Below are positions 18,501-61,413 of a stretch of 64,000 nt of DNA, piece by piece. The first letter of the stretch is position 1, and each line of letters opens with the position of its first letter. This DNA is from Mesostigma viride. Its lineage: Eukaryota > Streptophyta > Mesostigmatophyceae > Mesostigmatales > Mesostigmataceae. The notes beneath the pieces were generated by a model that ran no database searches, was not told the origin of the DNA, and saw nothing but the letters and a program-made list of their open reading frames with translations. The stretch is from NCBI GenBank assembly GCA_009746045.1, contig RPFO01000909.1, positions 28,773 through 92,772 on the forward strand, read 5' to 3'. The translations under genes and the position numbers were made by a program.

Positions 18501-21500
18501 TCCTCCTGTTGCGTGAGAGAAAGATTCTCTAGAGATCTAGATAATCACTAGTACGCCATTGACAAAGAAACCTAGACAGTGGCAAGTTTATATGTCAAGG
18601 TACAGTAGCTCCTCCAAGCCAGGAAACTGGCCAAATGTTTTGCCACTGCCGATTCGGATCAGGCCGCACCCGCCTCAAAAGTCATCAGTCACGCGAACCC
18701 TATATCCTAGATACAGCCGGGCTACCCTTCCATCTCACTTTAAAGAAACTATGTCCAGAGAACCACGAACTTTATATGACGTGCTTACCGAGAATCGTAA
18801 TTGTCCTCAACTATCTCTGGCTCATGCCCACAAGCAGCCTTGAGTTGCAACATAGTAACGCCACAGAAGCCCCAATCCAGCCTAAAAAATATTTGTAGGC
18901 AGGTTGTAGGCAATACTTGGAACCGTCGCGGATGCACATCTAGGTAGGGCTACTTAAGGGTATTATTAGGGGGTGGTCTCAGTACAAGGTTCCTCTGCTC
19001 TATAGATACCCTAGCAACCCACTCACTGCGGCAAGTGTGTGATGTGACACCCTTGTAATGCATGATGGACCCGTAAACTTCTCCATGAGCTGGCCCTGGG
19101 ATCGATTCTGAAGGCACATTTTCTGCATAGGATGGCATCCCAGCACTGATACTTGTACCTCCATCAGGGACCCACTGCATGTAGCTGGTGCAAAAAAGTG
19201 TTTTTATTCTATATGTAATGTCAGACAGCTGTGCACCAGGGTACCCCGATGACTTAATTTGTCCATGGTGTTCACCCTGGTCCGGTGGTCAGATACGGTC
19301 AGACAATGTTCCTACGCTCAGTACCAATTTAGATCTGAGTCGGTGCTGACCTACAAATTTCCCGCGAAAACCTTCCCCCGCAATCTGCACAGCTGCCACA
19401 AACTCACGCCGATTGTCCACCGTGAGTTCAACTCATGGTCGACAGTCGGCATGAGGACGGATCATGGCGGTACAACGTGGTGGTGGGATATACTACTCCC
19501 ACACAAACACTTTAAGTGGAACCGTCATGCTGTGAAACACATAGTTACTTTGGTGGGACTTGGTGGGACATAGTAATTCAGTTTCAGGTGTGACGTCCTG
19601 CATGCATGGCTAGCAACCTGGTACCATCCTGTGATCACTCCACACGTCCCACCAGGGGGGGGGCATGAAAACGTGACAACAGTGATCGATATCATTTCTA
19701 TACCGGTATCTTTCAGGTATTCAGTCAGGTAAATCACATCAATAAGCTTCTTGATTCAGTTGATTGGCAGTTTGAGCTTACAGTTGCGCCAAGGCACTGA
19801 GAGATCCCAGCTGAGCCGGGATGGTGCCAGAAATCTTAGCGTAGGCAAGGTCCCTGCGATCACATGCAGTTAAAGCAGATCGATACGCGCAAGCATTGAC
19901 AACTGATGATGTTAGAAGTTAACGATAGTTGTTATTTTGCTGGGCGGCAGCGCATAAAAGTGTATAAATATGTAATTGGTTAAATCTATGACATAATATG
20001 TATAAAAGTGCCCTTTTTGATTGTTGGACATATTGCACATATGTATGTATCCATTTCTGGCCTTGCGTTGCTTTGCGTGCATCACCACAAAACATCAAAT
20101 TTATTACAATATGTGTGCTAGCTCTATACGGTGGAATAACACAGACTTGTCTACCAGATGGCAACACGGCCATCTGTATGCTAGGGTGAGCACACTATGT
20201 GAATTTGCAGGGCCAGCCCACAGCAGCTGTGCCCCTCCTCTATCCACATCTCCTTACATGGCTAACAGCCGAATATACTATATGACATGCAAAAAAGAAA
20301 ACTTAAACTACCTACAGTTAGGGGGGTACTTTCTCCCAACCCAGGTTCACCCTGGGGTTAGTTAAACCATTTCGCCCCTGACCTCCCACGCAGGGGTGAG
20401 GTCAGTTGATAGCTAAAAGACGAGAGATAAAGACAGGAAGACGTCAAAACACAACGCCACCGAAGTGGCGCCGAAAAGCCGCTGGGTCAAAACCCAGGGC
20501 CTGAGACCAGAGGGCTGACGGAATGTCCCGCCCCAGGAGGCTGCGGTTGAGGCCAATGTAGCGCGTGACTGAGAGGGCCGAGGCCCACCGGGCGCGCAGC
20601 TGAATGGCCTGAGTCCGGCAACTCGCCAGCGATTGCGTCGTGCGTCGCCCCCCCATGCCAGAGGCTGTGAAAAGAAAACATCCCCAGGATGCCCATGCGG
20701 GCCTGCACTGCCTCCCACTGCTGCCTAGCCAGGCTGTACATTACGCCCTGAAAAAGAAGTGCATTCGGGGGCTGGCCAGCCGTCAGGCGTCGCAGGAGCC
20801 ACAAAGAAAGTGGATCCCGAACGAGACATGCTGGGCCGCCCCCTGCGCAGTTTCGGGGTTGCACAACACAAGGGCACCGACCGTGGGCCCTTGCTCGAGA
20901 AGAGGGTGGCCAGGATGGGCCACATCCCGAACCCGCAGCCCTGGCGCCTCGCTAATGCAAAAATACTGCTGCATGGAAAGCAAGAATAATCAACGCTCTC
21001 AAACGCACCTGTTGAATTGAAATTAGCAACAGGGCAGTGAAAAAGCAGAGGCGCCAGGGCATAGGCGGAGGGCTGACAGCAAGGAACAAGCCGCTGCCAT
21101 CGTGCAAGCAGGCGGTCCGCCAGTACCCTGGAATGCCGAACAATGTCGGGGTAGTACAGGTGCAGACAGGTCTTGGTGTGCTGGCATAAGGTACGTCCCC
21201 GCCCACCTCGGGCATGGTAGACAGCAGAAATCCACTCACAGAAAATGGCTTCCGTGTTAGCTGGGTCGACGGGTCCAGGTGGCCAGCGCACACGCCACGT
21301 AGACAACCACTGCGCCCCGGTACGCTGGCAAGGTAGACACAGGGTTGACTGTGCCCTCCAGCAGTGCCAAGTCCCGAGGGCGTCGCGCCCCCTCAGGCCC
21401 AGGGTTGGGATGCACGTCACCGCACCGGGTCAAGTCAGGAATCCAGCCGCTGGCCTTGTCAGCTGGGTTGTGGTCGGTAGCCACCCAGACCCACTGGCTG

Positions 21501-24500
21501 TGCCTGTCACCAGCCAGCGACAGAGCCCAGTAGCGCCGATCCAGCTGGTTGAGGCGGTAGGAAGACGAACGCCCTCTGACAAACGCCTCCACACAGTACT
21601 AGAGTCCACGAGCCGGACAACCCGCTTACCTTGACACACCTTGGTCCGGCACGGCCACTCGACCCCCAGCGTCGCAGCAATCGCCTCCTTGCCGTTGATG
21701 TGTTTCCGCTGCCCCCGCCACCTGAAAGGAAGTAAGTACTTGCTTGTAATGCGCATGGGCATGCCACCGAGTACTATGCTAATCTCATTAGAAAATAATT
21801 AGACGAAAGTTACAAATATCGTCTGCATCATGCCCCAACCATGTATAGTCACTAGAGGGGGATATAATACTCATCTGAGCTGTCCTCTACTATAATGGCA
21901 GATGAGGCGGTAGTGTGGCGGCTGTCCTCAGGGCAATAACCTCCACCAGCGGACTGCTACCCTGCATTCTAGCAATAGGCCGCGGGGTCCGTGGGGAGAA
22001 AACAGGAGCATGCCCCTCAGGAATTAAGGTGCTTAATCGCAGACACCAGCCCATTTCTCCTTGTCTATCATGCGGGCGCGGAGTACAGAAAATCCCAGAA
22101 GCCCTGCATCCTCAAGCAACAGTGTCACATAGGTCCGGGTCGCGCCGCGCCGGTGCCCGGCGCGCGCAAGTTTGCCACTGGGTTGCGACGGGACAAAGGG
22201 AATCGACCTTGCCATAGGAGGAGCTGTCGACCTGGTTGGCCAATCCTAATCAAGCCCGCAGGGCCCACATCAGTATTCACCTGGTCTGTGCGGGCAAGAT
22301 GGCCGGCAAAGAGGAGGCGGCGGTGTCGGATGGTATGGGTGACAAGAGGGAGCTCGCAGTATAGAGCTCTTCCGGGGTGCGGTGCTCTTGGTAGCGGACG
22401 CCGAGGATGTGACGGGGCATTCGAGTGACAGTGCCGTCAAGCTGCTTGCTCAGCGCTTGGTCCTGAACTTCCACGCCTTGCAGCAGTAAAGGAGGATGCT
22501 GAGGACAAGGGCCTTGAACAGAATGCCGCCACCTGTAGGACAGTGCCGTACGCCCGTGGCCACCACCCAGCAGGCTGTAGTCCCCCTCCTCCATGCGCTC
22601 CAGGTTCCAGTCCTCACCACAGGTTAAAGTTGTCGTCCGCCGCCCCCGCGCTTCGCGCCGGGTTGCCAGCCAGGCACAATCAGCCCAAGGCAGGTCCCTG
22701 TATGCAGACCACCCCACCGCCTGAGCTGCTTGCGTCACTAGCGACGACCCGATCAGAAAGGGGCCCAGCCCTGGCAGCCTTTACAAAGGGGGCCAGGTCG
22801 ATCGCCGCCAGAAGCTCCTGGCGGGACCTCTCAGGGAGCCGCTAGCGGCGCCCAGGCAGGGAGGAGTTCATGGTTGCGAGCAGCCGAATGTCTCAGACCA
22901 CATGCACCGAGAGCATGGGGCGACAAAGCATGGATGCATCCACACCCGCTTCCCAAGAACAAAACTAAGTTCGCGGTAGTATATTAATCCGCGATCCAAG
23001 ATTCTATGGGTAGCAGCGATAACCGCCACCACACGCTCAAGAACACGCACCACGTCACCATCTCTTTGGTGATAGACACCCACCGCCTGCACACCAGTCT
23101 GTTCTGCCGTCGCCCGTACCATGCCTTGTCAGACTTCTGCACCAGCCCAACAGCGGCGTACGCAGCCTGAACACGATCTAGCTGCTGATTCACTCCATCT
23201 GCCGAAGCACAGTGGGTAAAACGGAGGTCATCGATCGTCACGGCATGCATATTACAAGTCCAGATCCTGCCGAGATTCGAAGCACGGCGAGGGCGCCAAG
23301 GGCGCAACAGGGTCCTCCTACAGACTAAGCCGGACAGTCTGCCCGGCCTCGTCAGCGTCCGCCACCAAAATCAGCACTGACATGTCGATGCTCAGGCCAC
23401 GACTAGCCTCCAACGGGGGCTTGGGGCCACAGTGGTACAGCACAGACTGGTGCACGCACTGCATGGGCCACAGCGACGACCAACTTGTTTCCCATTGGCC
23501 AGCACAACATCCACGGCAAGACCTTCCGACGCGGCCCACTAAGGCCCACAAGATCCGACCGCACCAGCATCCACGCACAATACCACCGCATCCAAGTGGG
23601 CAGGCGAGGTCAGTTGTATGTACTAGTAGGAATCCAAATCTGATCCTCCCCAACGCGCGTGGGCAAATCGCAAATCACGCCAAGGTGTGGTAAAAAAGCG
23701 GGCATAGGATCTGGTAGTGGCATGTTGCCACGACAGTTGTCCACAATCAGCCGAATATGGCCGTCGGGCTTTCCGACCATAAAAGTACTATTCACCATAG
23801 GCGGCTCCTCAAAAAATCCACCCGAAATTCGCCCTCTCCACACACACCGTGCAAACCTGCCCGAATCCTCCATGCTACACCCCCACGAGATCCGCATCAA
23901 CTTCTGCAAGATCCGCTCTATGTCCGCCACGTCCTGGTCGGTCGCCCCAGGTGGCAGCGCCATCCTCCTCCCCACCGCTAGCCCCACCATAACCCGCCCC
24001 TCCGCCCCCACCTGCCGGAGGGGGAACACCCCTTGTTCCCACCGCATCTGTTGATGCCATGGAGGATCCGGCTCTGCTATAGCTTCCCCCAGCTGCGCCG
24101 CTAGCACATCGACCAGGTCCTCCTCCCTATCCCAATCACTGACAAATCCCTTTCCTCCAGTGCGTCCATGACGTTCTCGGCACACCCCTTGTTGAGCTTC
24201 TTGATTCGCTCTAGCCAACCCCCCGCCCCAAGGATCTTCTGAACGTCCGCAGTGGCGGCCTGGCCTTTGGGGTGCATCCCACCTTGGCTGCTTGCTTGAG
24301 TTTCGCTATGAAATTGCGTTCTGGGGCTGTCACTGTCCTGGTCATGGTGCATGGGTTGTATTGCTTGATATGTTGCCTTGCGTTTTGTTTTTTGTAATGT
24401 GGTCACGTGAGGTTCTCAGGGAAAAGAAACAACCTGCTTCCCTAGAATGGAAGCCCGCCATTTATAGCAACCACCTGTCTGGCAGCCAACCCCTACACTG

Positions 24501-52620: not shown

Positions 52621-52656
<36 letters not shown>

Positions 52657-55600
52657 ACTCTTTGTGTCCGTAGCCAGTGTTGCCGCTTTAGTTCTGATGT
52701 ATGACTTGCATCGCAGCACTTTGATATCAACACGGCTCACGTTACCAGATTACTAGCAACACTGGTAATAGATGTTGCGAACTGCATTAGCATACAAATT
52801 ATATTACAAATGCAAATAATCTGTATATAATAGTAATAATACAGTCATTCAAATGATGTCAGCATGAGCTGAAAATTTGGTGCTGTAAAATTCCCACCCT
52901 CTAGCACTCGGCAATATATTATTTGGACCTCTTGCACGAGAATCTGATTTTAAAGTGATTTTTTGCTTTAAAAAAGACGTATTTGGGGTGAAAATTTATA
53001 AGTGTACCGAAACGTGCTTATTTCCAAGGTGGTGCAAATTGGCTGGAATTACACTGTACTAGAAAGGGTGGGGATTTTATGGGAATGCATGGCAATGGTC
53101 ACAATGTGTTTGCCCATTGTCAGGACTGGGGAAAATATGCTAAATATAGCGTCTTTTCTATTTTTACCATATAACGGCCACAGGGTGGGAGACAGGGGGG
53201 TACTACCCCCCCCAAGTGGTTGATTTTTTTTTTATATAATATTTATGGTCCCCAATCATCACTGGATTTTTATCACATGCTTAGGCATGGCTTCTAGTTC
53301 AAAGTGCACTACGGGTATGTCTGGTCCCCTTGAAAAAAATGGAAGATCTATTTCCTCCAATATACCTTGGTAAACGCAACAAGTTTTGACGCACGTACGG
53401 AGAAAGAAACTAGCACTACTAGATATCATGAATGTCGAGATCTCGAACCACGATCCCCCCTTCATTGTCACATCAATCACTACACTGGTATCTTATCTTA
53501 GTAATGTCTGTTGGTTTATTTGTGGGAACATAGGCCCCCCACCATGCATACAGGTACTGTAGCTTAGACAATCAACTAGTTAACAAAAGCATGCGATAGA
53601 TAGCAGCTGCCACGAGTCGGATATGTACTGCAGTCGTATATATACCTTGAAAAGACAATAACAAGCAAACAGCAATTTGTAGCAAATACAACAAACATGA
53701 AGAAGCAACGACAGGCAGACAACAGCGCTACATGTAGTACCGCCCCCCGGAGGGCCCTGGGTACATCTAAACCGCCTTGAGCAGGGCCGCAATAAAATCG
53801 GGCTCCATGGGTGGAAATGCAGTTTACATGCAAGCTCTGCTTGGCGTGTACGAAACTGACATCAGCATCTGTCAAACTACTATAAGGGCTTACAAAGATG
53901 TAAGGGCCGTTAAGCTCCCAACGTCACTTGAAAGAAAGCCCCCTGTTAACAGTCCGCTACTTTCTCTGCAAGACGAGGCACGAAGTGACGCCAAGATTGG
54001 CAATTTGCAGCCAGTCCAACCAGTATGTGTGAATTACCCACATGAGAGCTAGTTAGTCATCAAGGGCAATCATGTATGTACAAGGGGCAGGCTGCATCAC
54101 TATTAATTAACTGGGTGCAGGCTGCATCACTATTAATTGCGGCATTAATTAATCAAGTAATATACACGTGACTGCGTCATTTCAATTGCGGCATGTCTAC
54201 CTATTTCTAAGCCCTAGAATATTCATGTCTTGATTTCTAGCTTATCGCCATGTGAGATACGTCATTTGTAGTGGTAAACGTGAAATGCAGCTTGGATCCA
54301 GCATGAAACGTTTATGGTATGGAATGTATAAATTGTTAGTGCAGACTATGAGTTACGTCAAGCTCTCATATATTGTGATGCGAATTGTCAGAGTCACGTG
54401 ATGTGCAAGATATTAAGTGACAAGGTTCCTGAGTGTCGTCATGTGTGTACTGTACCAAGTCCAATATTTTATCATTCGAATATCAGTCATACTTTAGTGC
54501 TGGCACATGGCACCGGTCTATCAGATTTTAGGTTACTGCCTGTGCAGTTATACGGTGGACTTATCCATAACACTTAGAGCATGCAGCCCATGCAAGCACA
54601 ATTGGTGATTTAACGTAACCAACTGTCCAGGATATGATTACATGCGTAATCTACCACACAATATTGATATGGATTATCTGCCACTGGCTCACAGTTGTGG
54701 CAGAAATCTAGTGCCATACCTGTGCTACTGTGGATAATTCATAAATAGTGCTATTGTGTATATATACCATCAGTGAGTTCAGCCTACCTTGGCTGATGGC
54801 TTGACGCACTTCTTTCATTCTTTCTCAGCATCTAACCTACTCCAGGTCCAATGCTTAATATATTTTCAGAATCCATTTCAGGCAAAAGAAACAACCTGCT
54901 TCCCTAGAATGGAAGACCACCATTTATAGCAACCACCTGTCCAGCCAACCCCTACCTGGGTGGCTGGGGTACAGGTGCAAGCACAAAAAATATTCTTTGA
55001 AAATTATTTTTTCTCTTTGTGCTTTACGGCGTTGCATTCTCCGCTCAGCAGGTTGGTCATATATAAAATGAGCATACAGTAGCTCACCAAATCCATTTCT
55101 GGCCTTCCTTTGCTAATTGCATGCATCACCACAAAACATCAAATTTATTACAATATGTGCGCTAGCTCTATTATACGGTGGAATAACACAGACATGTCTA
55201 CCAGATGGCAACACGGCCATCTGTATGCTAGGGTGAGCACACTATGTGAATTTGCAGGGCCAACCTAGCAGCTGTGCCCCTGCTCTAACCACATCTCCTT
55301 ACATGGCTATCAGCCCAATATACTATCTATGACATGCAAGAAAGAAAACCTTCTACCTACAGTAGGGGGGACTCTTTGTCCCGACCCAGGTTCACCCTCG
55401 GGTTAGTTATGTAAACCATTTTCCCCCTGACCTCCCTCGCAAGGGTACATAAGGTCACTAGATAGCTAAAAGACCAGAGATGAAATTTGGAAGACGTCAA
55501 AACTCGACGCCACCGAAGTGGCGCCGAGAAGCCGCTGGGTCAAAACCCAGGGCCTGAGCCCACAGGGCTGGCGGAATGTCCCGCCCCGGGAGGCTGCGGT

Positions 55601-58600
55601 GGAGGCCAATGTAGCGCGTGACTGAGAAGGCCGAAGCCCACCGGGCGCGCAGCTGAATGGCCTCTGGCGACTTGCCAGCGATGGCGTCGTGCGTCGCCCC
55701 CCCCATGTCGGGAGCTGTGAAAAGTAAACATCCCCAGGATGCCCATGCGGGCCTGCACTGCCTCCCACTACTGCTAGCCTCGCTGTACGTTACGTACGCC
55801 CCGAAAAAGAAGTGCATCCGGGGGCTGGCCAGCCGTCAGGCCCGTCGCAGGAGCCACAAAGAAAGTGGACGAGACATGTTGGGCCACCCCCTGCGCAGTT
55901 TCGGGGTTGCGCAGCTCAAGGGCACCGTCCGTGGGCCCTGGCTCGAGAAGGGGGGGGGGGCCAGGATGGGCCACATCCCGAGCCCGCAGCCCTAGCGCCT
56001 TGCTAATGCGTAATTACTGCTGGAAAGCAAGAATAATCAACGCCCTCAAATGCACCTGTCGACCTGAAACTAGCAACAGGGCAGTAAAATAGCAAAGGCG
56101 CACGGGCATTGGCGGTCGAGGGCTGACAGCCGGAACAAGCCGCTGCCAACCTGCTAGCAGGCGGTCCGCCAGTACCCCATTCCGAACAATGTCGGGGTAC
56201 ATAGTACAGGTGCAGACAGGCCTTGGCGTGCAGTGGCATAAGGTACGCCCCCCCCCCCTCTGGAATGGTAGACAGCAGAATCCACTCGCAGATAATGGCT
56301 TCCGCGTCAGCTGGGTCGATAGGGCCAGGTGGTGAGCACTCACGCCACGTACAAATCCGAATCTGATACGCCCCCCAAAACATCCTCCCCAGCGCGCGTG
56401 GGCAAATCGCAAATCACGCCAAGGTGTGGTAAAAAAGCGGGCATAGGATCTGGTAGTGGCATGTTGCCACGACGGTTGTCCACAATCAGCCGTATACGGC
56501 CGTCGGGCTTTCCGACCCCAAAAGTACCGTTCACCATACATGTAGGCGGCTCCTCAAAATATCCACCCAGCATCCCCCTCTCCACACACACCGTGCAAAC
56601 CCGCGCGAACTCCTCCATGCTACACCCCCGCGAGATCCGCATCGACTTCTGCGAGATCCGCTCTGCTGGGCTCTGAGCGTCCGTACCATCTTACATGAAC
56701 TCTCATCATTCAAAATTGCTCCCCAAGAGGTGGGTAGTAAGTTCAGCACATCCACTTGGCCACCTTCCCCCGGACCAGGCAAGGCCAAGCGTGCGGCTAC
56801 TAACAGTAGGTAAGGGGCTCCTTAAGCATATTCACCCCCATCCACTACAGATCCTGCCATTGCCGCTACGGAACCACCGTTCCGGCGGACAAAGGAACTG
56901 CAAGCATCATCGATCCCATCTAGGGCCGCCTGCTGCAGAGGCCCGGGCACACGGGCTGAATCTACAGCAGGCGGGTCTCGCCCCCACCCTCCATCCAGTT
57001 TAACGCCCTAACTGCTTGACAGGCTAGTGTGCGAGCTTTAAAAGCCAGACTCATCATATCGTGCCTACAGCCTAAGCGTACCTGCTGCCACCAGCCACGA
57101 GCTGGAAGCAGCGCTGGAAGAGGCAGCGGAAGGAGGTACCGCTCCCTCACTTGTTGTTGTTGGACGGGCCGCCCTGCCCCTTCTTGCCAGGACCCTGGTC
57201 CAGCTTGTGTTGCAGCTTCCCCATGCTCATCGCGGCCCGGACCGCCGGAGACGCCCACATTGCCCCACCCTCCTGGAATGGCAGCATGCCGACGGAGTGC
57301 CCTTCCAGCCCGTTGACCCCACATCCACCGGCTGACATGCCGTGACCAACTTCGCCAGGTACACACTCGTCTGCTCCAAGCTCCAGAATCACTTCGTCCG
57401 GAGCGTGGCGTTGCCCGGTAGCCGAATTCCGTGACCATCGTGTCCAGGATGCCAGCCATCCGCAGGATCAGCATGCGCCTCTCCCCGCTGGCTGTGCTGC
57501 CCCCCTGCATCGTCAGCATTATCGAGGCACGGATGGACTTCCCCCCCTGACGCTCTCCGCGTAGTCCAGCATCCCCGGCAGCACCGCCACCAGCATGTTG
57601 CTCAGCACGACCGGCACTGCATGCCCGCTAGGCGCCACAGCTCTCCCTTCGTGCGCGCCAGCCTTCCAGCAGTCGTCGCCGCCGCTGGGCTTGCAACTGC
57701 TGGAGTCTTTGCCTGGTCTGGACAGCAGCTTCGACATAGCCGCTATCAGGACGCCAATATCTCCGCCAGTGAGGGCGATGCCCGGCCGGGTTGGAAGCCC
57801 TCCAGCTGGGGTTGCATACATAGCCCGTCTCGGTCCCCAGCAGCCGCGACCTATGTTTCGGTCTATGTAGGTCCGCCGCATCTCTGTCGGGTGTGCACAC
57901 CTGGGCCGCCATCCTCCTCCCCACCGCCAGCCCAACCATGCCCCGCCCCTCCGCCCCCACCTGCCGGAAGGGGAATGTACCCCTTGTTCCCACCGCACCC
58001 GTTGACGCAACGGGATCCAGCTCTGCAATAGCCTCCCCCAGCTGCGCTGCTAGCACATCGAGACCAGGTCCTCGATCCTCCCCATCCCAATCGCTAACAA
58101 ACCCCCTTTCCTCCAATGCGTCCATGACGTTCTTGGCACGCCCCTTGTTGAGCTTCTTGATTCGCTCTAGCCGACCCCCCTCCCCTAGGATCTTCTGAAC
58201 CGCAGTGGCAGCCTCCTTTGGGGTGCATCCCTCCATGGCTGCTTGCTTGAGTTTCACTATATGAAATTCCGTTCCGGGGCTGTCAGTGTCGAGGTCATGG
58301 TGGGTTATAATGCTTGATGTGTTGCCTTGCGTTTTGGTTTTTGTGATGTGGTCACGTGAGGTTCTCAGGCAAAAGAAACAACCTGCTTCCCTACATAGAA
58401 TGGAAGCCCACCTTTTATACAGTAGCAACCACCTGTCCAGCCAACCCCTATTTGGGTGGCTAGGTTACAGGTGCCAGCACAAAAATATTTTTTTCTGAAA
58501 ATTATTTGGGACCATACATGTAAGCGTCAGCCATAACTCATGGCTAGGACATTATGTAGGCATATTCAAACGTAGGTTGTGCACATCTTCCTTAACAATG

Positions 58601-61413
58601 CTCAATGTGGCGGCGGTGATCAATAGCAATTGTCAGATCTACAACATCATCATCTAGATGTCGCCGCAATTCCATCAACCAATTATTAAGGTACGTCCGC
58701 TGGGTCATTTCGTAACAGGATGGCCTGCAATCTTTTGCACTATGCGTGACGACATTGGTAGACCTAGTAGGCGAGCCGGCACTCAAGGACAGCTCAGCAT
58801 ACATATGTAGCGCCGGACAGCACTTAGTTGGACAAGTAATATCCGTCAGCATAAATGCAACATGCCTAGTCGAGTCATCAAACGGCCTCAGTGAAAATAG
58901 AGTACATATGTAGGCGCATTAATATAAATACCACTACGCCTCTCCTTGCATGGACGGCCAATTTGTACATAATCACGACTTTGGGCGCACATGGGCTTAA
59001 ATCAAAATTTATAGCCCAAACAATATGTATATGTACATACAGATTGTACAAGACCTGTTGACTGTAAAATTACCAACCACAATTTCTTGCCAATTGACCC
59101 CAGCTGGGGCCGGTCCGAGTCCAAATTATACAGAATCTACATAATAGATAGTAATTAATCACGACTTACCAAAACTCTCCGACATTCAGATTGGTCAGGC
59201 ATGCAACTGGGTCATCCGATCCACAGGTCCCTTTAACATCATACATATGTATATAGCCGGTGCACAGTTAACAACCAATTACGAATCTTGGTAAGCAAGA
59301 CGTAGAAAGAAACAATGGCGGATCATAGCCAGCCTAGCTTGCTTAATGCATGGTCCCCGGACACACAAACTGGCATCATCCTAAATTAAGTAACACCGGC
59401 ATGCGTCACACGCCGGCCTGAACAGACAGTGCTGAAAACGCCACTAGAAACAACGTGGCCACGCACCCCAAGGCTACTGCGTTAACCGTACACGTAATTG
59501 TACAAGGTTCTCAAGACTGACAACATGAAACTCACCCATCGACCCCTTGGGCCGGTCCGAATCCACTATACAATAATTAATCACGACTCACTAAAAAACC
59601 AATTTAATCAGTCAAAGATTCGTTATAAAACCAGCCAACCCTACAGGTCCCCAGCTGATCTCAGCCGGTGCAACCAAATATGTACGAATCTTTGCAAGCA
59701 AGTCGTACGTATAAAACCTACAACTAATTTCCTCGGACCACTATGTAATTAATAGCCACCGACCTTTATAAACAACCGGGGCATCCAAGAGAGATTCCGG
59801 CAGGCGAGCATGAAACCCTTTGTACAGATCGAATTAGTCAGCCCATGTCGCAGACAGCCTTCCACATGCAGGCCAAGGCATAGCCGCCCTAACTTTCCCG
59901 CATGCGTTAAGTTAAACTATATTCAGAGAAAAGGAATTCTATTACTTAGTTTTCCGGACCATGCACCTATATAACAACAGCCGCCGACCATTAATACAAC
60001 CGGGTTCCCGGTCCTTCAAAGAAAATTTGGCGCTCAGCTTGGAACCCTTTGGAAAATCAAGTCAACCCATGTCGTAGACAGCCCTCCACATATGCCCTCC
60101 ACATATGTATCACCGCAGGCCAAGCCATAGAGGCCCTATCAATCGATCCGCATGCGTTATAATTAATCTATACATATATACTTCCAGACAGTGACGTGAA
60201 GTATGTAAACACGTATCATTACATGCTATGAGCCTCATGTCTGCCTTAGACATAACATTCATGATGTCACATCAGTCATCACATTATTAGATGGAACCGA
60301 TGTCATCATGATGATGATGACACACATGCCAGCCAAGCATTGACCTTGAAGCTAACACATATGGTGCACATCACACCAAGGTACAGTCAGTGCCACTTTT
60401 CATGCAAGCAAGTGCTGCCACAAGTGATCCATGTACTACATTATATGTACCCAACCGTGAGTGAATGACTCAGCCTAAAGCAAGCAATACAGCTGCGATG
60501 TAGTATTAGCGATGAATGGCAATAGCAATAGCGATGAATGGCACTAGCAATAGCGATGAATGGCAATAGCAATAGCGATGAATGGCATATATAAACTGCC
60601 GGGTGTAGAACTTCGAGCCCGTTTCAAGAACTATGTACACAATTCTCAAAACCGACTACATAATTCTCAGCTCATGAATAATTAAATCAGCAACTATCTA
60701 AGCCAGCTGAAAATATATTGTGGGCATGTGCGAGGCATGTGGGACATTCCTAACAAACCCGGCCTTAGGCCTAATACCTCCGCTTACAACATTATGGCAA
60801 CTGAAATACTAAAAACGTAAGGAAGCAGTCAATTGGCACACACTGGGTTAAATTCAACCCTTGACACTGTCCATACCTTGCTTGTGAACGCAAGCGTCCT
60901 CGTTTGCAAATTGCAAGCCTCACAATTGTTTAACCTCGATCGCGTGACAGCCATGTATTGAGACGACACCAGCATTGATCAATCGAATAATTGTCACGGC
61001 TTTATATTCTCGAATTTTCAGGAAGGCGTGGTGGCCTGATTGAATGCCGGAGGCTGGCAGCTCCTCTTAAAAACATTGAGTAGCTCAGAGCTACGTACAT
61101 GTACATACACTGAAGTGTCGACATAGTTTTGTCAATGCATCTACATATGCATGTAGTACATACAGTCAGCGAATGCATTCGTCACGTGAGAAATATATTT
61201 GTGGACAGCATGGCATACGCACCGCTCGAGGTCACTTACATGCTTGTAACGCGGCCAGCTGCGTTCGAGAAAACGTAAGCAAAAGTTGTGATGGGATTCT
61301 CGACGGACCAAGAGCTCAGTGCAGGAGGGTCACCGAGCCCAGCCTTGAGGGCGAGCAGGTGCTCTTTGTCATCTGCTGGGTTCGGCCATCCATGGCCAAG
61401 AGGGACAACAGCC
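94..61413 (-). CDS. LRR - C-type lectin protein gene, >61 kb, nine exons recognised (partial)
   Basis: Joined exons, in transcript order: 61413-61240, 45188-45117, 38819-38748, 30061-29987, 29026-28952, 19853-19782, 13715-13644, 7803-7700, 513-94. All are on the minus strand and all have AG acceptors. Seven donors are GTAAGT, GTAAGA or GTAAGC-type; the 13.6 kb exon uses GTGAGC. The N-terminal LRR exon and all six LRR exons end in phase 2 and start with one base completing a codon. The cap exon starts with one base and ends in phase 1, and the lectin exon starts with two bases, so the frame is continuous. The product would be LRR N-cap, plant-type LRRs of the SGTIP kind, C-cap, then C-type lectin domain: plausibly a secreted or cell-surface recognition protein (inference). 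The signal-peptide exon and 3' end are missing. It could also be two neighbouring paralogues, and further LRR exons may have been overlooked. Confidence 0.65.
514..1055. other. Intron-like spacer
   Basis: The stretch between the lectin exon acceptor and the first SDR-C element. The open frame of the lectin exon extends upstream to an ATG near 628 with a hydrophobic start (VVFCSLVVPLFCKLF), which could be a fortuitous signal-like sequence. Nothing else is recognisable. Confidence 0.4.
1056..3322 (+). mobile_element. SDR-C copy I, non-coding split-direct-repeat element
   Basis: The layout is A1 (1056-1349), internal (1350-2609), B1 (2610-2795), A2 (2796-3107), C-rich joiner (3108-3136), B2 (3137-3322). 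A starts with GAGCTATCTGCTC-like sequence then CATTTTATAGTTATG and carries CTGCCGCCTGTAGCGTAGC. B starts GGGACAAGATTGGACC and ends near CACTCCAATGG and CTTCAGCACCT. A1-internal-B1-A2-B2 is the split-direct-repeat arrangement of PAT and Kangaroo YR retrotransposons, but no RT or recombinase is visible, so it is probably mobilised in trans. The internal region shares a GCGGAGCCCGC...GTAGCGGAG tract with the element inside the LINE. Short overlapping open frames here look like chance. Confidence 0.65.
3323..6511. other. Intronic stretch, no gene recognised
   Basis: AT-richer sequence with scattered short open frames on both strands (for example 4935-5282 plus and 4173-4526 minus), none with a recognisable domain. 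A tRNA B-box-like GGTTCGATCC lies near 3974 without a matching A box or cloverleaf. TA-flanked motifs such as TACATA and TACTGTA are frequent. Confidence 0.4.
6512..6698 (+). repeat. (GGGT)n tetranucleotide array
   Basis: About 45 nearly perfect GGGT units, preceded by a short GTGC/GTGT tract. All six frames read through as THPP or GGWV repeats, which is low-complexity translation and not protein. The G-rich strand could form stacked G-quadruplexes. Confidence 0.97.
6965..7070 (-). mobile_element. SDR-C A-repeat fragment
   Basis: On the minus strand this matches part of the A repeat of the SDR-C elements: TTGCGGCGGGTTCAAAGGGG, then CTGTAGCGTAGCTCTACCGTA and a CACCATG end. There is no B repeat nearby, so it is a truncated remnant in opposite orientation to the full copies. 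Confidence 0.6.
7700..7803 (-). CDS. Predicted LRR C-terminal cap exon
   Basis: A 104 nt exon between a GCGCAG acceptor and a GTAAGT donor. The translation begins VVDGNSAMCGTF, continues SWIGDNLYFSSE and ends NIASCP. A GN..CG motif followed by a second cysteine resembles the capping segment after plant-type LRRs. It starts with one base, matching the phase 2 end of the LRR exon at 13644, and ends one base into a codon, matching the two-base start of the lectin exon. Phase agreement on both sides is the main support; sequence similarity alone is weak. Confidence 0.5.
7943..8104 (+). repeat. (CCCT)n tetranucleotide array
   Basis: About 40 perfect CCCT units (GGGA on the other strand). The long open frames here (PSLPP or GREGG repeats) come from the array and are not genes. 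Confidence 0.97.
8540..8590 (-). mobile_element. LINE 3'-end remnant
   Basis: The sequence CATTGAGAACGATAGATTAC followed by GGAGGTGAGAT matches the 3' terminus of the LINE copies near 12120 and 40613. Only about 40 bp are shared, so this is a severely 5'-truncated insertion or a decayed copy. Confidence 0.5.
8591..9525. other. Intronic stretch, no gene recognised
   Basis: No domain is visible. A minus-strand GTAAGT donor motif at 9013-9008 follows a short open frame but has no supporting homology. A block near 9417-9436 resembles a block near 6136. Confidence 0.35.
9526..11853 (+). mobile_element. SDR-B copy I, non-coding split-direct-repeat element
   Basis: The layout is A1 (9526-10140), internal (10141-10979), B1 (10980-11106), A2 (11107-11708), joiner TACCCTCCCTCCCACCC (11709-11725), B2 (11726-11853). 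A opens with TTTTCTCTGAAT.TAGTTTAATTAA and holds GGACCTGTATGGTCGGCTGG; B ends TTCAATCAAATGCTGGTC then TTCTTGGGAG. A2 plus B2 looks like a short copy of the element lacking the internal region. No ORF with a recognisable domain is present, so mobility would depend on an autonomous YR element such as those at 20, 45 and 55 kb. Confidence 0.7.
12119..12609 (-). mobile_element. 5'-truncated LINE copy (3' end only)
   Basis: Matches the 3' part of the LINE at 40.6 kb. The minus-strand frame encodes the C-terminus, with LSLALTR, VADVLFRS and ADFVATQVV followed by a stop near 12347, then the shared 3' UTR ending TTATCATTCTCAAT. The 5' truncation point lies against the (GGGA)n array at about 12609. 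Confidence 0.75.
12604..12908 (+). repeat. (GGGC/GGGA)n array
   Basis: Tetranucleotide array starting with GGGC units, then mostly GGGA with two single-base slips (near 12789 and 12858). It abuts the 5' end of the truncated LINE. The 214 and 256 residue open frames crossing it combine LINE C-terminus with repeat translation and are not a gene. Confidence 0.95.
12909..13643. other. Intronic stretch, no gene recognised
   Basis: Unique-looking sequence between the array and the LRR exon; no domain or repeat family recognised. Confidence 0.35.
13644..13715 (-). CDS. LRR exon L1 (72 nt)
   Basis: One 24-residue plant-type leucine-rich repeat, containing DMRLSGTLSPKLGSLRSLLY. The acceptor is CGCAG directly upstream (13716-13720) and the donor is GTGAGC (13643-13638). 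The first base completes a codon and the last two bases begin one, so the exon is symmetric, as are the other five. The exact 72 nt length between splice sites, with the LRR frame intact, is strong internal evidence. It is the last LRR before the predicted cap exon. Confidence 0.7.
13716..14980. other. Intronic stretch, no gene recognised
   Basis: Several short open frames (13937-14254 minus, 14186-14401 plus) lack recognisable domains. AT-rich; nothing further seen. Confidence 0.35.
14985..15098 (+). repeat. Single arm of foldback element
   Basis: Contains GCGAGTGGTTACCGCCGGC, a GCCGCAGTGGCAAAAAGGTT block and TTTAGAGCTAGCT, matching the right arm of the foldback element at 16191-16403. The left arm is absent or lost. 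Confidence 0.65.
15132..15583. repeat. Inverted-repeat element, about 450 bp
   Basis: Arms at 15132-15172 and 15542-15583 are inverted copies (ATGTGAAAGCATGGGCGATA versus its complement). The interior has no ORF. This is MITE-like in layout; target duplication was not resolved. Confidence 0.5.
15577..15930 (+). repeat. Two tandem units of about 190 and 163 bp
   Basis: Both units start CATGTGCTAC.CTAGACG and contain GGCAAGTAGTGATGAAGGAG. Unit 1 holds a 26 bp perfect palindrome (15598-15623) missing from unit 2. A GGATGG versus GG difference also separates them. The ORF spanning both is a by-product. Confidence 0.7.
16191..16403. repeat. Foldback (hairpin) element
   Basis: Two arms of about 90 bp in inverted orientation, ending TTAGTTAGCTCTAAA and TTTAGAGCTAACTA, with a short central spacer. 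Typical of a foldback MITE with no coding capacity. A single arm occurs at 14985-15098. Confidence 0.8.
16768..16849 (+). repeat. (TGGCACC)n heptanucleotide array
   Basis: About twelve perfect 7 bp units, followed about 120 bp later by C-rich, CA and ACCC tracts (16950-17060). The open frames across it are repeat translation. Confidence 0.95.
17061..17790. other. Intronic stretch, no gene recognised
   Basis: ACCC-rich start, then AT-rich sequence with no recognisable gene or repeat. Confidence 0.35.
17791..18489. mobile_element. TIR element (MITE-like), about 700 bp
   Basis: Imperfect terminal inverted repeats: TTTTTTTTGCAAGCTTATAG and GAGGTACCTTGAAATTAAAT then AAGAGACATGCCTC on the left, with their complements at 18362-18489. 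The interior has no transposase. A related right half lies at 38015-38400, also just left of an LRR exon, so the element may predate duplication of that gene block. Confidence 0.6.
18490..19781. other. Intronic stretch with one doubtful exon
   Basis: No repeat family seen apart from similarity of about 19565-19781 to 38518-38747, the flank of LRR exon L5. The doubtful exon at 19027-19174 is listed separately. Confidence 0.4.
19027..19174 (-). CDS. Possible exon of unknown function
   Basis: A 148 nt interval between an ATGCAG acceptor and a GTGAGT donor, open in two frames (one reads WVPDGGTSISAGMPSYAENV, the other starts GSLMEVQVSVLGC). The second fits a phase 2 start but ends in phase 0. 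No domain is recognised and it breaks the phase pattern of the neighbouring LRR exons, so it may be alternative or chance. Confidence 0.2.
19782..19853 (-). CDS. LRR exon L2 (72 nt)
   Basis: One LRR reading DLAYAKISGTIPAQLGSLSA then LAQL, between a TCGCAG acceptor and a GTAAGC donor. Symmetric phase. The exon and its flanks (about 19565-19950) resemble those of L5 at 38748, with the same CAGCT.AG.CGGGATGGT pattern on the plus strand, so the two are tandem duplicates. Confidence 0.75.
20049..24664 (-). mobile_element. YR retrotransposon copy 1 (decayed)
   Basis: Starts on the minus strand with an A repeat (about 24664-24418), followed by gag-like, RT, RNase H and recombinase remnants, and one B repeat (about 20250-20049). 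The second A-B pair present in the 45 kb copy is missing. There are many frameshifts relative to the 45 kb copy, and several small indels are TA-type (TACACTGTA at 24494, TATGTA at 23627). The element lies in an intron of the LRR-lectin gene. Confidence 0.85.
20413..24355 (-). pseudogene. gag-RT-RNase H-YR coding region of copy 1, broken
   Basis: Fragments follow the order gag-like (24355-23900), RT (with VGKPDGHIRLIVDNCRGN and the catalytic VTIDDLRFTHC), RNase H (NPADKAS box), a CGDVHPNPGP motif at 21395-21424, then the tyrosine recombinase ending near HFGGV. The recombinase HxxR box reads HSLWHGGATH: the catalytic arginine is replaced by tryptophan. With several frame changes this cannot make an active protein. 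Confidence 0.85.
24665..25978. other. Intronic stretch, no gene recognised
   Basis: Short open frames only (24962-25165 plus, 25649-25950 minus), without domains. No repeat family recognised. Confidence 0.35.
25979..28056 (+). mobile_element. SDR-D, recent split-direct-repeat element
   Basis: The layout is A1 (25979-26431), internal (26432-27325), B1 (27326-27447), A2 (27448-27900), joiner starting GCCACCCACCCTCCCTG (27901-27931), B2 (27932-28056). A1 and A2, 453 bp each, look identical by eye; B1 and B2 differ at about one position. A opens TCGGATTTCTCTGAAAATAG, close to the SDR-B start. There is no coding domain, so it is probably non-autonomous and recently inserted. Confidence 0.8.
28057..28951. 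other. Intronic stretch with duplicated flank of LRR exon
   Basis: Includes a hairpin repeat (28272-28347). From about 28680 the sequence is similar to 44850-45116 (GTGTGTCGCTGGTGGGCCAC and TGTGCCAGT.CATTTTCCGA blocks), the flank of LRR exon L6. Confidence 0.5.
28272..28347. repeat. Palindromic hairpin repeat (copy 1)
   Basis: Inverted arms GGCAGAGGAGAGGAATTCTG and the complementary CCTCTCTCCTCTGCATATAT. A related hairpin is at 44669-44751. Confidence 0.6.
28952..29026 (-). CDS. LRR exon L3 (75 nt)
   Basis: One 25-residue LRR ending SGTLPASLGSLTSLDFL, between an ATCCAG acceptor and a GTAAGA donor, with the same symmetric phase as the others. About 450 bp of surrounding intron match those of L6 at 45117, so exon and flanks were duplicated together. 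Confidence 0.72.
29027..29986. other. Short intron between L3 and L4
   Basis: At about 960 bp this is the shortest intron recognised. It holds a 75-residue minus-strand open frame (29603-29830) of ordinary composition and unknown function. Confidence 0.4.
29987..30061 (-). CDS. LRR exon L4 (75 nt)
   Basis: One LRR containing AVSGTIPATLGSLRSLASL, between a CCGCAG acceptor and a GTAAGT donor, with one base at the start and two at the end. It shares LGSLRSL with L1, consistent with L6-L5-L4 and L3-L2-L1 being duplicated blocks. Confidence 0.72.
30062..30818. other. Intronic stretch
   Basis: A GTAAGT motif on the minus strand near 30556 follows an interval open in several frames (30557-30650) after a CTGCAG acceptor; no domain recognised. 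A (GTTGA)n array lies at about 30769-30803. Confidence 0.35.
30819..32864 (+). mobile_element. SDR-C copy II, non-coding split-direct-repeat element
   Basis: The layout is A1 (30819-31104), internal (31105-32144), B1 (32145-32340), A2 (32341-32638), joiner CCCACCCACCCACCC region (32639-32664), B2 (32665-32864). It is homologous to copy I at 1056-3322 in the same orientation. Between A1 and A2 of this single copy a TA at 30941 became TATGTA at 32463, a footprint-like change after insertion. No protein domain is visible; the open frames are not conserved between the copies. Confidence 0.7.
32865..34436. other. Intronic stretch, no gene recognised
   Basis: Short open frames (32875-33087, 33252-33542 plus) without recognisable domains. 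Near 34100 a block resembles one near 58600. A direct repeat ATATATAGGATAGTCG occurs at about 34216 and 34265. Confidence 0.35.
34437..37446 (+). mobile_element. SDR-B copy II, interrupted
   Basis: The layout is A1 in two pieces (34437-34655 and 35353-35760), internal (35761-36613), B1 (36614-36745), A2 (36746-37333), joiner CCTCCCTCCCACCC (37334-37349), B2 (37350-37446, end truncated). About 700 bp of unrelated sequence (34656-35352) sits inside A1 next to a TA; no inverted repeats were seen at its ends. Differences from copy I include several TA-type and other 4 bp insertions. Confidence 0.7.
37447..38747. other. Intronic stretch with TIR-element remnant
   Basis: Positions 38015-38400 resemble the right half of the TIR element at 17791-18489, ending ATAGAGGCATGCCTCTTATT and AAGGTACCTCT. 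An ATTTTACCCCGACT block occurs at about 37813 and 38434. Confidence 0.5.
38748..38819 (-). CDS. LRR exon L5 (72 nt)
   Basis: The clearest LRR of the set: RLADNYFSGTIPPELGNLRS then LVEL, an almost perfect plant-type repeat (N-x-F-S-G-x-I-P). The acceptor is ATGCAG and the donor GTAAGC, with symmetric phase. The flanks on both sides are similar to those of L2. Confidence 0.8.
38820..40611. other. Intronic stretch, no gene recognised
   Basis: An open frame on each strand at 39140-39469 has ordinary composition but no known domain. AATTGGCC inverted blocks lie at about 40495-40555. Nothing else seen. Confidence 0.35.
40803..42778 (-). pseudogene. LINE reverse transcriptase and endonuclease-like ORF, frameshifted
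   Basis: RT core with TGTQQGDPLGP and AYMDDIH, thumb region, a cysteine-histidine knuckle (CGSCGLDLDTTGTHYIAC), then RPGITVLAY, LLLIDVSVARP and AERDKFASYG, resembling the PD-(D/E)XK-like nuclease tail of some LINEs. Frame breaks: one base near 42487, a 5 bp TACTGTA-type insertion at 41267-41273, and a 4 bp insertion at 40875-40880. Without the last insertion the C-terminus would match the paralogue near 12347. Not functional as it stands. Confidence 0.85.
42776..44369 (-). mobile_element. SDR-C-related insertion inside LINE
   Basis: A 1594 bp insert flanked by AATCC at 42771-42775 and 44370-44374. Read on the minus strand it begins GTGAGCTCACGCTC then ATTATCTATGACTTGCGGC, like the A start of SDR-C and the YR elements. 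It ends CTCCAATGGCCGGCTAAAGC, like the SDR-C B end. No second A-B pair is seen. It contains a minisatellite of about 42 bp (44133-44258). Confidence 0.7.
44133..44258 (+). repeat. About 42 bp minisatellite, three units
   Basis: Three near-identical units with GCCAGCCCACTGACCAAAAG and GCCAGTGGTGCCGTG. Located inside the insertion in the LINE. Confidence 0.9.
44370..44664 (-). pseudogene. LINE RT N-terminal fragment
   Basis: Reads LIALLKDDVPPPAGRVRPIA then CGEFLRKLVSKV, the finger region of LINE RTs, followed by LGVATKGGTDIIVH and THVALKVD, the start of motif A. About 33 extra bases with a stop separate the two blocks near 44475. It is the upstream half of the LINE interrupted at 42776-44369. 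Confidence 0.75.
44669..44751. repeat. Palindromic hairpin repeat (copy 2)
   Basis: Arms TATATATGCAGAGGAGAG and CTCCTCTGCATATAC around a GGGCAGGCTTGAGAACC centre; related to 28272-28347. It directly abuts the 5'-truncated end of the LINE. Confidence 0.6.
44752..45116. other. Duplicated flank of LRR exon L6
   Basis: From about 44850 the sequence is similar to 28680-28951. Differences include TGCATG at 44941-44946 where the other copy has TG. Confidence 0.55.
45117..45188 (-). CDS. LRR exon L6 (72 nt)
   Basis: One LRR containing MQLSGTFPASLGSLTSLVNL, between a TTCCAG acceptor and a GTAAGA donor, symmetric phase. Paralogue of L3. The nearest recognised exon upstream is the N-terminal LRR exon 16 kb away, so LRR exons in between may have been missed. 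Confidence 0.75.
46235..48017 (-). CDS. RNase H - 2A-like - tyrosine recombinase part of the pol region (frameshifted)
   Basis: RNase H: VVASDASGSGGGVVY, INVKEAIA, RLVDSSAVVGAF and DHNPADKASR supply the D-E-D-D acidic residues. CGDVHPNPGP follows at 47198-47169. The tyrosine recombinase follows with YLRISEALGLRVRDV (box I Arg), HSLRHGGATHD (H-x-x-R), then GRWASALSVTRYIG (Tyr), ending HFGGVEF. Two frame changes, near 46530 and 46480, break the recombinase relative to copy 1. The first lies at a TTAAGC where copy 3 carries a TACGTA. Function: reverse-transcript processing and circle integration in the YR class. Confidence 0.85.
47960..48994 (-). CDS. Reverse transcriptase domain
   Basis: The 344-residue frame contains NGTFGVGKPDGRIRLIVDNR, motif A SDLDSYYNRL, motif B-like CWPMGNKLAVAVAQ and motif C HAVTIDDLHFTHC (TIDD instead of YxDD). 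This matches RTs of DIRS/PAT-like elements. It overlaps the RNase H frame, and a frame change is needed near 48017 to continue. The upstream segment 49161-48955 (PLQQAALDGIDDACR) probably also belongs to the polyprotein. Confidence 0.8.
   Translation of the reverse strand: MPGPGEGGQVDVLNLLPPSWGAILNDESRMVRTLSPAERILQKSMRISRGCSMEEFARVCTVCVERGILGGFFEEEPPMVNGTFGVGKPDGRIRLIVDNRRGNMPLPDPMPAFLPHLGVICDLPTRAGEDVFGGVSDLDSYYNRLRLPVWMRRYCAWMPVWSDLVGLSGARRKVWPWMLCWPMGNKLAVAVAQCVHQSVLYRCGPKPPLEASRGLSINMSALILVAEANEAGETVRLRLEEDPAAPLAPSPCFESRQDLEGMHAVTIDDLHFTHCASVDGVNQQLDRVQAAYAAVGLVQKSDKVVRATAEQTGVQAVGSFTKEMVTWCLFLSVWWQLSLLLIES
49358..50455 (-). pseudogene. gag-like ORF, frameshifted
   Basis: Starts MTSVTAPERNFIAKLKQEA after the A1 repeat and reads CTPKEAATAVQKILG and NVMDVLEKRGFVSDW, then in other frames LLDQAKTPATAS, VLPG|MLDYAESVGG and MLTMHGSSASGERRM, and ends GKKGQGGPSNNNK. 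The position before RT, the lack of enzyme motifs and the basic tail suggest a nucleocapsid-like protein; no zinc knuckle is seen. Copies 1 and 3 carry the same order with other frame breaks. Confidence 0.65.
51698..52300 (+). CDS. Hypothetical 200-residue ORF
   Basis: An uninterrupted frame from ATG to TAG with ordinary residue composition and no low-complexity bias: WADFLIPWTKHRTFFLQDDM, then YILVVAVFDGMEALAVVQTA. It overlaps no recognised repeat. No known domain, signal peptide or clear membrane segment. It could be an exon, a captured fragment or chance, and is opposite in strand to the host gene. Confidence 0.3.
   Translation: MLVPSCQLAHQLGTIALPNEATYVSVENSSTTGGAQISVHTPSIWTDPGPDRPLKPTGPNLPKSFTSRVTTGSVRQMWADFLIPWTKHRTFFLQDDMLLDQPRSYILVVAVFDGMEALAVVQTALSSLLVFNFDRTRPACFRVFPPGVITAVITLVECGRGGRAKGKLSIVVMPPFMLRVYMHDSVRPLQETFLRSYTDY
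53777..54052 (+). CDS. Hypothetical 91-residue ORF
   Basis: Frame starting MSRAAIKSGSMGGNAVYMQA and ending VCVNYPHES. Balanced composition outside any repeat family, no domain recognised. Low confidence. Confidence 0.2.
   Translation: MSRAAIKSGSMGGNAVYMQALLGVYETDISICQTTIRAYKDVRAVKLPTSLERKPPVNSPLLSLQDEARSDAKIGNLQPVQPVCVNYPHES
54870..58507 (-). mobile_element. YR retrotransposon copy 3, internally deleted
   Basis: A2 (about 55088-54880) is preceded on its left by only about ten bases of B2. B1 and the recombinase region (55089-56340) follow. A junction at about 56347 then jumps to the RT N-terminal part, so RNase H, most of RT and the 2A-like motif (about 1.5 kb) are missing. gag-like sequence runs to about 58300 and A1 is truncated at 58507. 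Relative to copy 2 it carries many footprint-like insertions. Confidence 0.85.
55497..58300 (-). pseudogene. gag, RT and YR remnants of copy 3
   Basis: The recombinase part keeps GRDIPPALWAQALGFDPA and RARWASAFSVTRYIG, but the H-x-x-R box is frameshifted (FHSSRHGG in one frame, THDAIAG in another). The RT part keeps NGTFGVGKPDGRIRLIVDNR. gag-like fragments end GGPSNNNK. Not functional. Confidence 0.85.
58508..59239. other. Intronic stretch
   Basis: An 86-residue minus-strand frame (58592-58852) with spaced cysteines (ITCPTKCCPALHMYAE) and no known domain. Its end (RRHIEHC) resembles a block near 34110. From about 59100 it shows weak similarity to the SDR-B A repeat. Confidence 0.35.
59240..59940 (-). 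mobile_element. SDR-B A-repeat fragments, reverse orientation
   Basis: On the minus strand the stretch matches SDR-B A from the TTCTCTGAATATAGTTTAA start through GGTGCAACC and CTTGAGAACC to the GCTTGCTTA end, with a partly duplicated piece at 59240-59330. Relative to SDR-B it carries TATGTA at 59679, TACGTA at 59706 and TATGTA at 59752. Confidence 0.7.
59941..60175 (-). mobile_element. Divergent SDR-B A-repeat start
   Basis: A second, more diverged copy of the first 230 bp of the A repeat (AACCGGGTTCCCGGTCC, CCCATGTCGTAGACAGCC, CCGCATGCGTTATAATTAA), next to the fragment above. Confidence 0.5.
60509..60586 (+). repeat. About 24 bp tandem repeat
   Basis: Units of GCGATGAATGGCAATAGCAA plus ATA, about three and a half copies. 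Confidence 0.9.
61240..61413 (-). CDS. LRR N-terminal domain exon
   Basis: A 174 nt exon between a CTCCAG acceptor after a pyrimidine tract and a GTAAGT donor. The reading contains NPADDKEHLLALKAGLGDPP then ALSSWSVENP and AAGRVTSM, the layout of the plant LRR N-terminal domain (D..ALLALK..L.DP..LSSW...GRVT.L). The usual C-x-W-x-G-V-x-C cysteines are not visible, a deviation. It starts with one base, so a signal-peptide exon should lie upstream; none was found. It ends in phase 2, matching every LRR exon. Confidence 0.7.

Follow-up and report, generated by a model that had tools for sequence, protein, structure and literature searches.

Short insertions at the dinucleotide TA in part of the Mesostigma viride genome look like footprints left by the excision of IS630/Tc1/mariner-type cut-and-paste elements, a reading to which we give a probability of about 0.8. 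The DNA analyzed (the window) is a stretch of 64,000 nucleotides at the right end of contig C1628 (92,772 bases), in an assembly of 440 Mb in 2243 contigs. The insertions are gains of sequence specific for TA, they carry a small set of spacers in both orientations, one of them appears to be very recent, and their density differs between regions. Excision of Tc1 leaves CA or TG between two TAs. We infer the following cleavage chemistry, repair route, and element identity, including the ends of the element. The element, bounded by 5'-CA(G)...(C)TG-3', would insert at TA, thereby duplicating it. On excision, the cuts would fall exactly at the 3' ends and 2 or 3 nucleotides inside the 5' ends, and because of this inset each flank would keep a 3' overhang of CA or CAG. 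End joining that retained one overhang would give TA-CA-TA, TA-TG-TA, TA-CAG-TA, or TA-CTG-TA, and joining that retained both would give TA-CATG-TA or TA-CACTG-TA. The duplicated TA would stay a target, giving nested scars.

The predicted words were in marked excess throughout the window. The strand balance was 55:51 for the 6-mers TACATA and TATGTA, compared to 13.3 and 12.5 expected from an order-1 model, and 21:15 for the 7-mers TACAGTA and TACTGTA, compared to 2.9 and 2.7 expected from the same model. After masking of the main tandem arrays and pooling of the strands, TACATA/TATGTA was the most over-represented 6-mer relative to an order-2 model (102 versus 32.8). TACAGTA/TACTGTA, under the same masking and model order, ranked fifth among 7-mers (36 versus 7.6), below AAAGAAA, the C run, ATATGTA (in which the 6-mer is embedded), and TAATTAA. 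The excess was found in DNA that is single-copy within the window (TACATA, 66 versus 20.0 expected; TACAGTA, 28 versus 4.1) and in copied DNA (35 versus 7.7 and 8 versus 1.8, respectively). It was present in all 16 of the 4-kb bins, ranging from 1.5- to 10.5-fold, with a peak at 56001-60000 (21 versus 2.0). Among longer forms, TACATATGTA occurred 6 times in the window (0.1 expected, order-1 model) and TACATGTA 11 times (0.9 expected), five of the 11 being inside a tandem array at 61581-61658. This array is a minisatellite of TACATG/TAGTGTAC units, with the five TACATGTA in 78 bp, and may have grown from scar words. The double 3-nt scar expected under the excision model, TACAGCTGTA, was absent from the window, and the flanks of TACATA and TACAGTA showed no conserved remnant, only mild base preferences. 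CTGACA/TGTCAG was also over-represented across the window (76 versus 40.9, order-2 model), in part within repeat copies. Long tetranucleotide arrays (GGGT, CCCT, GGGA, GAGG) lie at 6513-6697, 7942-8104, 12609-12908, and 63470-64000, the last at the contig end.

The same forms were over-represented among small indels. We took indels from those of the window's 66 self-alignments (E of 1e-10 or better) that had at least 75% identity, and determined expectations from 200,000 random deletions drawn in the same stretches. There were 225 unique clean indels, with 73, 33, 25, 55, 15, 4, 4, and 5 of lengths 1 to 8, respectively. A first-pass annotation of this DNA had staked its reading on TA-xx-TA forms being commoner than other 4- to 5-bp insertions, and the comparison gave a large excess: TA-[CA or TG]-TA made up 12 of the 55 4-bp indels (0.24 expected; P = 2e-17), and TA-[CAG or CTG]-TA made up 4 of the 15 5-bp indels (0.02 expected; P = 9e-9). 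All TA-X-TA forms together accounted for 15/55 of the 4-bp indels (0.87 expected) and 4/15 of the 5-bp indels. The spacers in the 25 TA-X-TA indels were CA (7), TG (5), CAG (2), CTG (2), CG (2), and none (2), with one each of CATG, CACTG, TGTAC, GG, and T. Eighteen of the 25 are in the set predicted from the overhangs (CA, TG, CAG, CTG, CATG, CACTG, CAGTG, CAGCTG). The other seven (CG twice, none twice, GG, T, and TGTAC) are outside it and count against the excision model. The proposal that these are footprints of the Tc1 and Sleeping Beauty type is therefore borne out by the TA-specific insertions and by the expected spacers (18/25), and is weakened by the seven that misfit, by the absent double 3-nt scar, by the failure to find a convincing source element or transposase in the window DNA searched, and by the lack of excess in the rest of the genome sample (both described below).

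The 4-bp events were insertions rather than deletions. In alignments of three or four copies (leaving out rep2b, which overlaps rep2), there were 19 single-copy 4-bp insertions, seven of them TA-CA/TG-TA, versus two single-copy 4-bp deletions. Based on this polarity, we conclude that the events are gains, and deletion in the other copies is ruled out as their origin.

All 19 words named in the first-pass annotation were found in the window, 17 exactly where it had placed them and two shifted by 10 (23627 is 23617, and 59752 is 59742). For 16 of the 19, as had been claimed, the TA at the aligned position of another copy was empty or near-empty, and three were unconfirmed: the alignment gap was 1 base only at 2436, it was 16 bases at 31932, and 41267 had no homologous copy within the window. 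The sites below are given without strand. TATGTA faced an empty TA at 32463-32468 (1/3 alignments), 37290-37295 (3/4), 55408-55413 (2/2 aligned copies), 57864-57869 (in copy B, described below), 59679-59684 (3/4), and 59742-59747 (3/4, with TT in the fourth), and at 45489-45494 it was the sole difference between two repeats, 45413-45613 and 45843-46039. TACATA faced an empty TA at 56198-56203 (2/2 copies) and 58392-58397 (4/4 alignments), and an empty TA or TAC at 3256-3261 (2/3 alignments). At 55446-55451, TACATA was a 4-bp insertion at a site that is TG in both other copies, and at 57817-57822 it was an insertion relative to copy B that would also fit a tandem duplication of CATA. Of the 7-mers, TACTGTA at 10189-10195 and at 37536-37542 faced an empty TA in 35349-37439 and in 50785-50859, respectively. 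TACAGTA at 55075-55081 faced an empty TA in 2/2 aligned copies, and at 58418-58424 the site was empty in 4/4 alignments, one reading ATA. Three sites had longer insertions: TATGTACTA at 23617-23625, a 7-bp insertion at TA; TACACTGTA at 24494-24502, with CA and CTG remnants and an empty TA in 3/4 alignments; and TACATGTA at 56537-56544, with both remnants (CA and TG) and two alignments, of which one showed an empty TA and the other a partial gap.

Repeat copies within the window provided estimates of the rate and age of the scars. Three copies of a retroelement, which we take to be DIRS-like from its motifs, are on the minus strand: copy A at 20038-24615, used as a comparator, copy B at 45402-50731, and the scar-rich copy C at 54878-58507. 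A Pfam search with the retroelement gave no match. The three-way alignment contained seven TA scars on 3 x 73 TAs (3.2%), counting 55446, which faces TG in the other copies; the scar at 56537 was only partly placed by MAFFT. Single-copy substitutions in these segments numbered 238 (3.8% of 3 x 2061 columns). The scars were uneven among the copies (six in C, one in A, none in B), while the substitutions were even (79, 85, and 74). A 1241-bp part of copy B was present at 99-100% identity in at least 40 places genome-wide, its own included (40 of 717 candidates scored), and this DIRS-like family appears to have been active very recently. The repeats 45413-45613 and 45843-46039, both part of copy B, had no mismatches and one 4-bp gap, due to TATG inserted at TA. 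The insertion at 45489 thus seems to be a very recent event, and because the repeat pair gained TATG without any substitution, TG was present at the birth of this scar.

The same TA could be hit more than once. One TA had a TG spacer in copy B (45489) and a 3-bp insertion in copy C (55172). In a locus on contig C1 (L002), TACGTATGTACATA stands at a TA for which three copies in the window have CTATTGCA or CTATAGCA, with 5 bases only beyond the scar in L002, and another TA there reads TACATACATGTA in comparison to copy B. A scar can be re-hit because each scar carries two TAs. Judging from their sequences, the six TACATATGTA in the window and the L002 reads appear to be nested scars.

The 4-bp insertions included more than one class, and the assumption that every one is a TA scar did not survive. 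The second class has the form NN-revcomp(NN)-NN (CA-TG-CA, TG-CA-TG, GA-TC-GA, AA-TT-AA, CT-AG-CT), is not specific for TA, and was widespread, including in the sampled stretches L009-L028. It made up 12/59 of the 4-bp indels in the window, 17/66 in the rest of the sample, and 0/6 in the other scar-rich loci. The corresponding controls were 0, 0, and 0 for a reversed spacer and 0, 1, and 0 for a complemented spacer. An example is TGCATG versus TG at 20970-20975 (2/2 alignments), and other sites in window alignments are at 2590, 12436, 22901, 23460, 24348, 24598, and 36108. No element was seen behind these insertions. They could arise from an element that makes a 2-bp TSD and leaves hairpin-sealed flanks, if the hairpins were opened two bases off the tip. 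If genome-wide, the class would represent a separate insertion signature, one to which we can put no name. The second class was equally common in and out of the window, and comparable numbers of 4-bp events were therefore sampled in both.

The TA scars were regional and not genome-wide in the DNA sampled. Outside the window, we sampled six long contigs that bear matches to the 14-mer TACATATGTACATA, taking twenty 10-kb stretches that start at round coordinates. Seventeen of these stretches (148 kb after tandem masking) contained 58 scar words versus 53.9 expected, from 0- to 2.1-fold each, compared to 2.7- to 5.4-fold per 10 kb in the window. Without masking, the 20-stretch sample had 65 TACATA versus 51.4 expected (31 of them in one tandem-array locus) and 22 TACAGTA versus 11.6. 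One region of contig C1 (14.3 Mb), at 420-460 kb, was also rich (L001, 6.5-fold; L002, 8.8-fold; L032, 7.1-fold). L001-L008, L030, and L031 are biased upward because they contain the scar-like 14-mer TACATATGTACATA. L032 was picked between two TACATATGTA sites and not selected by its own words, of which it had 11 versus 1.6 expected. Elsewhere on C1, the ratios were 1.8-fold at 100 kb (L009), 1.2-fold at 300 kb (L010), and 1.4-fold at 600 kb (L034). The stretch adjoining the window (L029) was at 1.8-fold, a stretch on the same small contig as L008 (L033) was ordinary (3 versus 2.3), and the control stretch L037 (1 versus 0.3) was mostly masked tandem repeat and little informative.

Indels followed the same pattern. 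TA scars were 21/135 of the pooled 2- to 8-bp indels in the window, 3/14 in L001, L002, L008, and L032, and 2/207 in the rest, in groups that were set after the word ratios had been seen and with variant gap placements that may count twice. By a looser rule that included all lengths, the fractions were 18/269 in the window, 1/433 in L009-L028, and 1/268 in L001-L008 plus L029-L031. The term "pervasive" in the first-pass annotation thus fits the window's contig and one C1 region, and does not extend to the genome sample, with its 58 versus 53.9 words and 2/207 scar indels. Genome-wide abundance was also rejected by direct counts: there were 721 TACATATGTA in 440 Mb versus 579 for the reversed word, and 15 TACATATGTACATA versus 15 for its reverse. 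The density of TACATATGTA was 1.6 per Mb in the genome, whereas the 6 sites of the window amount to 94 per Mb. On C1, TACATATGTA was clustered, with 12/31 gaps below 25 kb (mean of 1.7 and maximum of 8 in 20,000 random sets). However, two stretches inside clusters were ordinary (L035, 2 versus 3.7; L036, 3 versus 2.9) while L032 was rich, so clustering alone is no island marker and was discarded as an island map.

Could the scar-rich regions be merely older or less constrained, with one low scar rate everywhere? The few scars in the rest of the sample (2/207 indels) and its unmasked TACAGTA count (22 versus 11.6) would agree with this. Yet the second class of insertions was found at 17/66 outside and 12/59 in the window, against TA scars at 2/207 and 21/135. 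Because comparable numbers of 4-bp events were sampled, age alone fails to explain the missing TA scars elsewhere, and we think this explanation unlikely.

Few traces of a source element were found near the scars. The first-pass annotation had stated that almost no full copies remain, and indeed the window contained no convincing TA-flanked CAG...CTG element. It had no TA-flanked 14-nt repeat pair starting with CAG, and one weak 12-nt TA-flanked CAG pair (2 mismatches; 18712-20738) that extends into retroelement copy A. The sampled loci outside the window had two CAG pairs, both inside larger palindromes (L020 and L025). A TA-flanked palindrome at 16192-16403 was rejected as the source, as its ends read GTTAGCTCTAAA and not CAG. 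TA-flanked palindromic repeats with GTTAGCTCTAAA ends form a family, with a second member at 15009-15095 and related palindromes in L006, L025, and L032. No Pfam transposase was found in the 18 scanned of 58 listed window ORFs, and no transposase motif was found in the window by regular expression. At 5-628 there is a C-type lectin domain (PF00059, E 7e-17), the best solved relatives of which by sequence are C-type-lectin receptors, e.g., lymphocyte antigen 75 and mannose receptors. Searches of viral and prokaryotic collections found no relatives, and Rfam and tRNA scans were empty.

The genome as a whole is not poor in transposase genes, contrary to what had been supposed. There were at least 96 matches to PF13358 (DDE_3) genome-wide, 95 of them marked over the cut-off, and many were in open frames 500 to 1388 residues long. 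Many also fell into equal-score sets and therefore likely represent multi-copy families. The classic Tc1 transposase is far shorter than the 1388-residue frames. None of the DDE_3 matches listed was on the window's contig, the best-scoring copy (L038, 2.5 kb) had no TA-flanked 12-nt terminal repeat, and the family was present in 3/14 control genomes too. We regard it as a candidate source.

A TA-specific nuclease, either domesticated or acting in programmed elimination, might instead make staggered breaks at TA to which repair adds CA/TG or CAG/CTG, no element ever having been there. Such a nuclease would account for the lack of a convincing CAG-ended element near the scars and for TAs that were hit repeatedly (45489 in copy B and 55172 in copy C, and the nested scars in L002). 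We nevertheless consider it quite improbable: one would not expect repair filler to consist largely of CA, TG, CAG, CTG, and sums of these, which are the remnants expected of Tc1-type ends.

It is very unlikely that replication slippage (microsatellite growth) or CpG deamination of inserted TACG produced the words. TACATA is no tandem duplication of its empty TA, and the excess holds against models that preserve the CA/TG frequency, even though there is a mild CpG depletion (0.72) and CA/TG is elevated. Two TA-CG-TA insertions are present and 57817 would fit a tandem duplication, but tandem duplications were 5/55 of the 4-bp indels only, and 45413-45613 / 45843-46039 gained TATG with zero substitutions. 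On these last two grounds, we rejected slippage and CpG decay as the chief origin of the words. An assembly or sequencing artefact is scarcely credible: although the window sits at one end of a small contig (92,772 bases), words and nested scars are also rich on the 14.3-Mb contig C1 at 420-460 kb (L001, L002, L032), and neither the choice of TA nor the small spacer set would be expected.

Excision footprints of IS630/Tc1/mariner-type elements are thus the reading we favor. In a broader interpretation, which we offer tentatively and at less than even odds, insertion and excision of TA elements in parts of the genome would be a mutation process of the order of base substitution (3.2% of TAs versus 3.8% of bases), rewriting the same TA repeatedly, confined to islands, perhaps via local hopping. 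It would be accompanied by genome-wide NN-revcomp(NN)-NN insertion, as if by 2-nt palindromic additions from opened hairpin ends. Excision scars mark past element positions even where no element survives, so that a scar-dense region in one assembly is enough to read how often a TA-targeting element moves, which targets it chooses, and how its excision sites are repaired. Scar density bears on the share of small indels due to transposon excision, and the uneven distribution provides a direct test of local hopping or compartment-specific activity.

The available parts of the open-access literature (most subscription papers being outside its scope) contained no report of scar-dense regions without elements. 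In ISY100, of the IS630/Tc1/mariner family, cleavage falls exactly at the 3' ends and two nucleotides within the 5' ends (PMC2170065). ISY100 and Tc1/Tc3 of C. elegans resemble the window scars in the TA target and the 2-nt cut inside the 5' ends (PMC2170065), whereas the window scars are dense and regional and their element is one that we infer. A pogo-type element leaves 0-4 bp on excision (PMC9976928). The rice DNA-transposon excision landscape likewise scored excisions by genome comparison, and Mariner elements there target TA. In contrast to the window, with its scars without elements, the rice study had numerous elements and compared two species (PMC4423477). The Ectocarpus mobilome has 11,912 Mariner-Tc1 copies and DIRS elements, and local hopping was proposed for regional enrichment; the words "footprint" and "excision" have 0 occurrences in its main text (PMC12477816). 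The footprints of Sleeping Beauty are TACAGTA/TACTGTA, words identical to those in the window (PMC4378557), although a review gives TAG(T/A)CTA instead (PMC2874221). This form is a minority in the window (4/15 of the 5-bp indels), and more than 300,000 sites in the mouse genome (PMC4378557) compare with 36 in the 64-kb window. Footprints of this kind are themselves well known, and their density, nesting, and uneven distribution here are a variant worth following.
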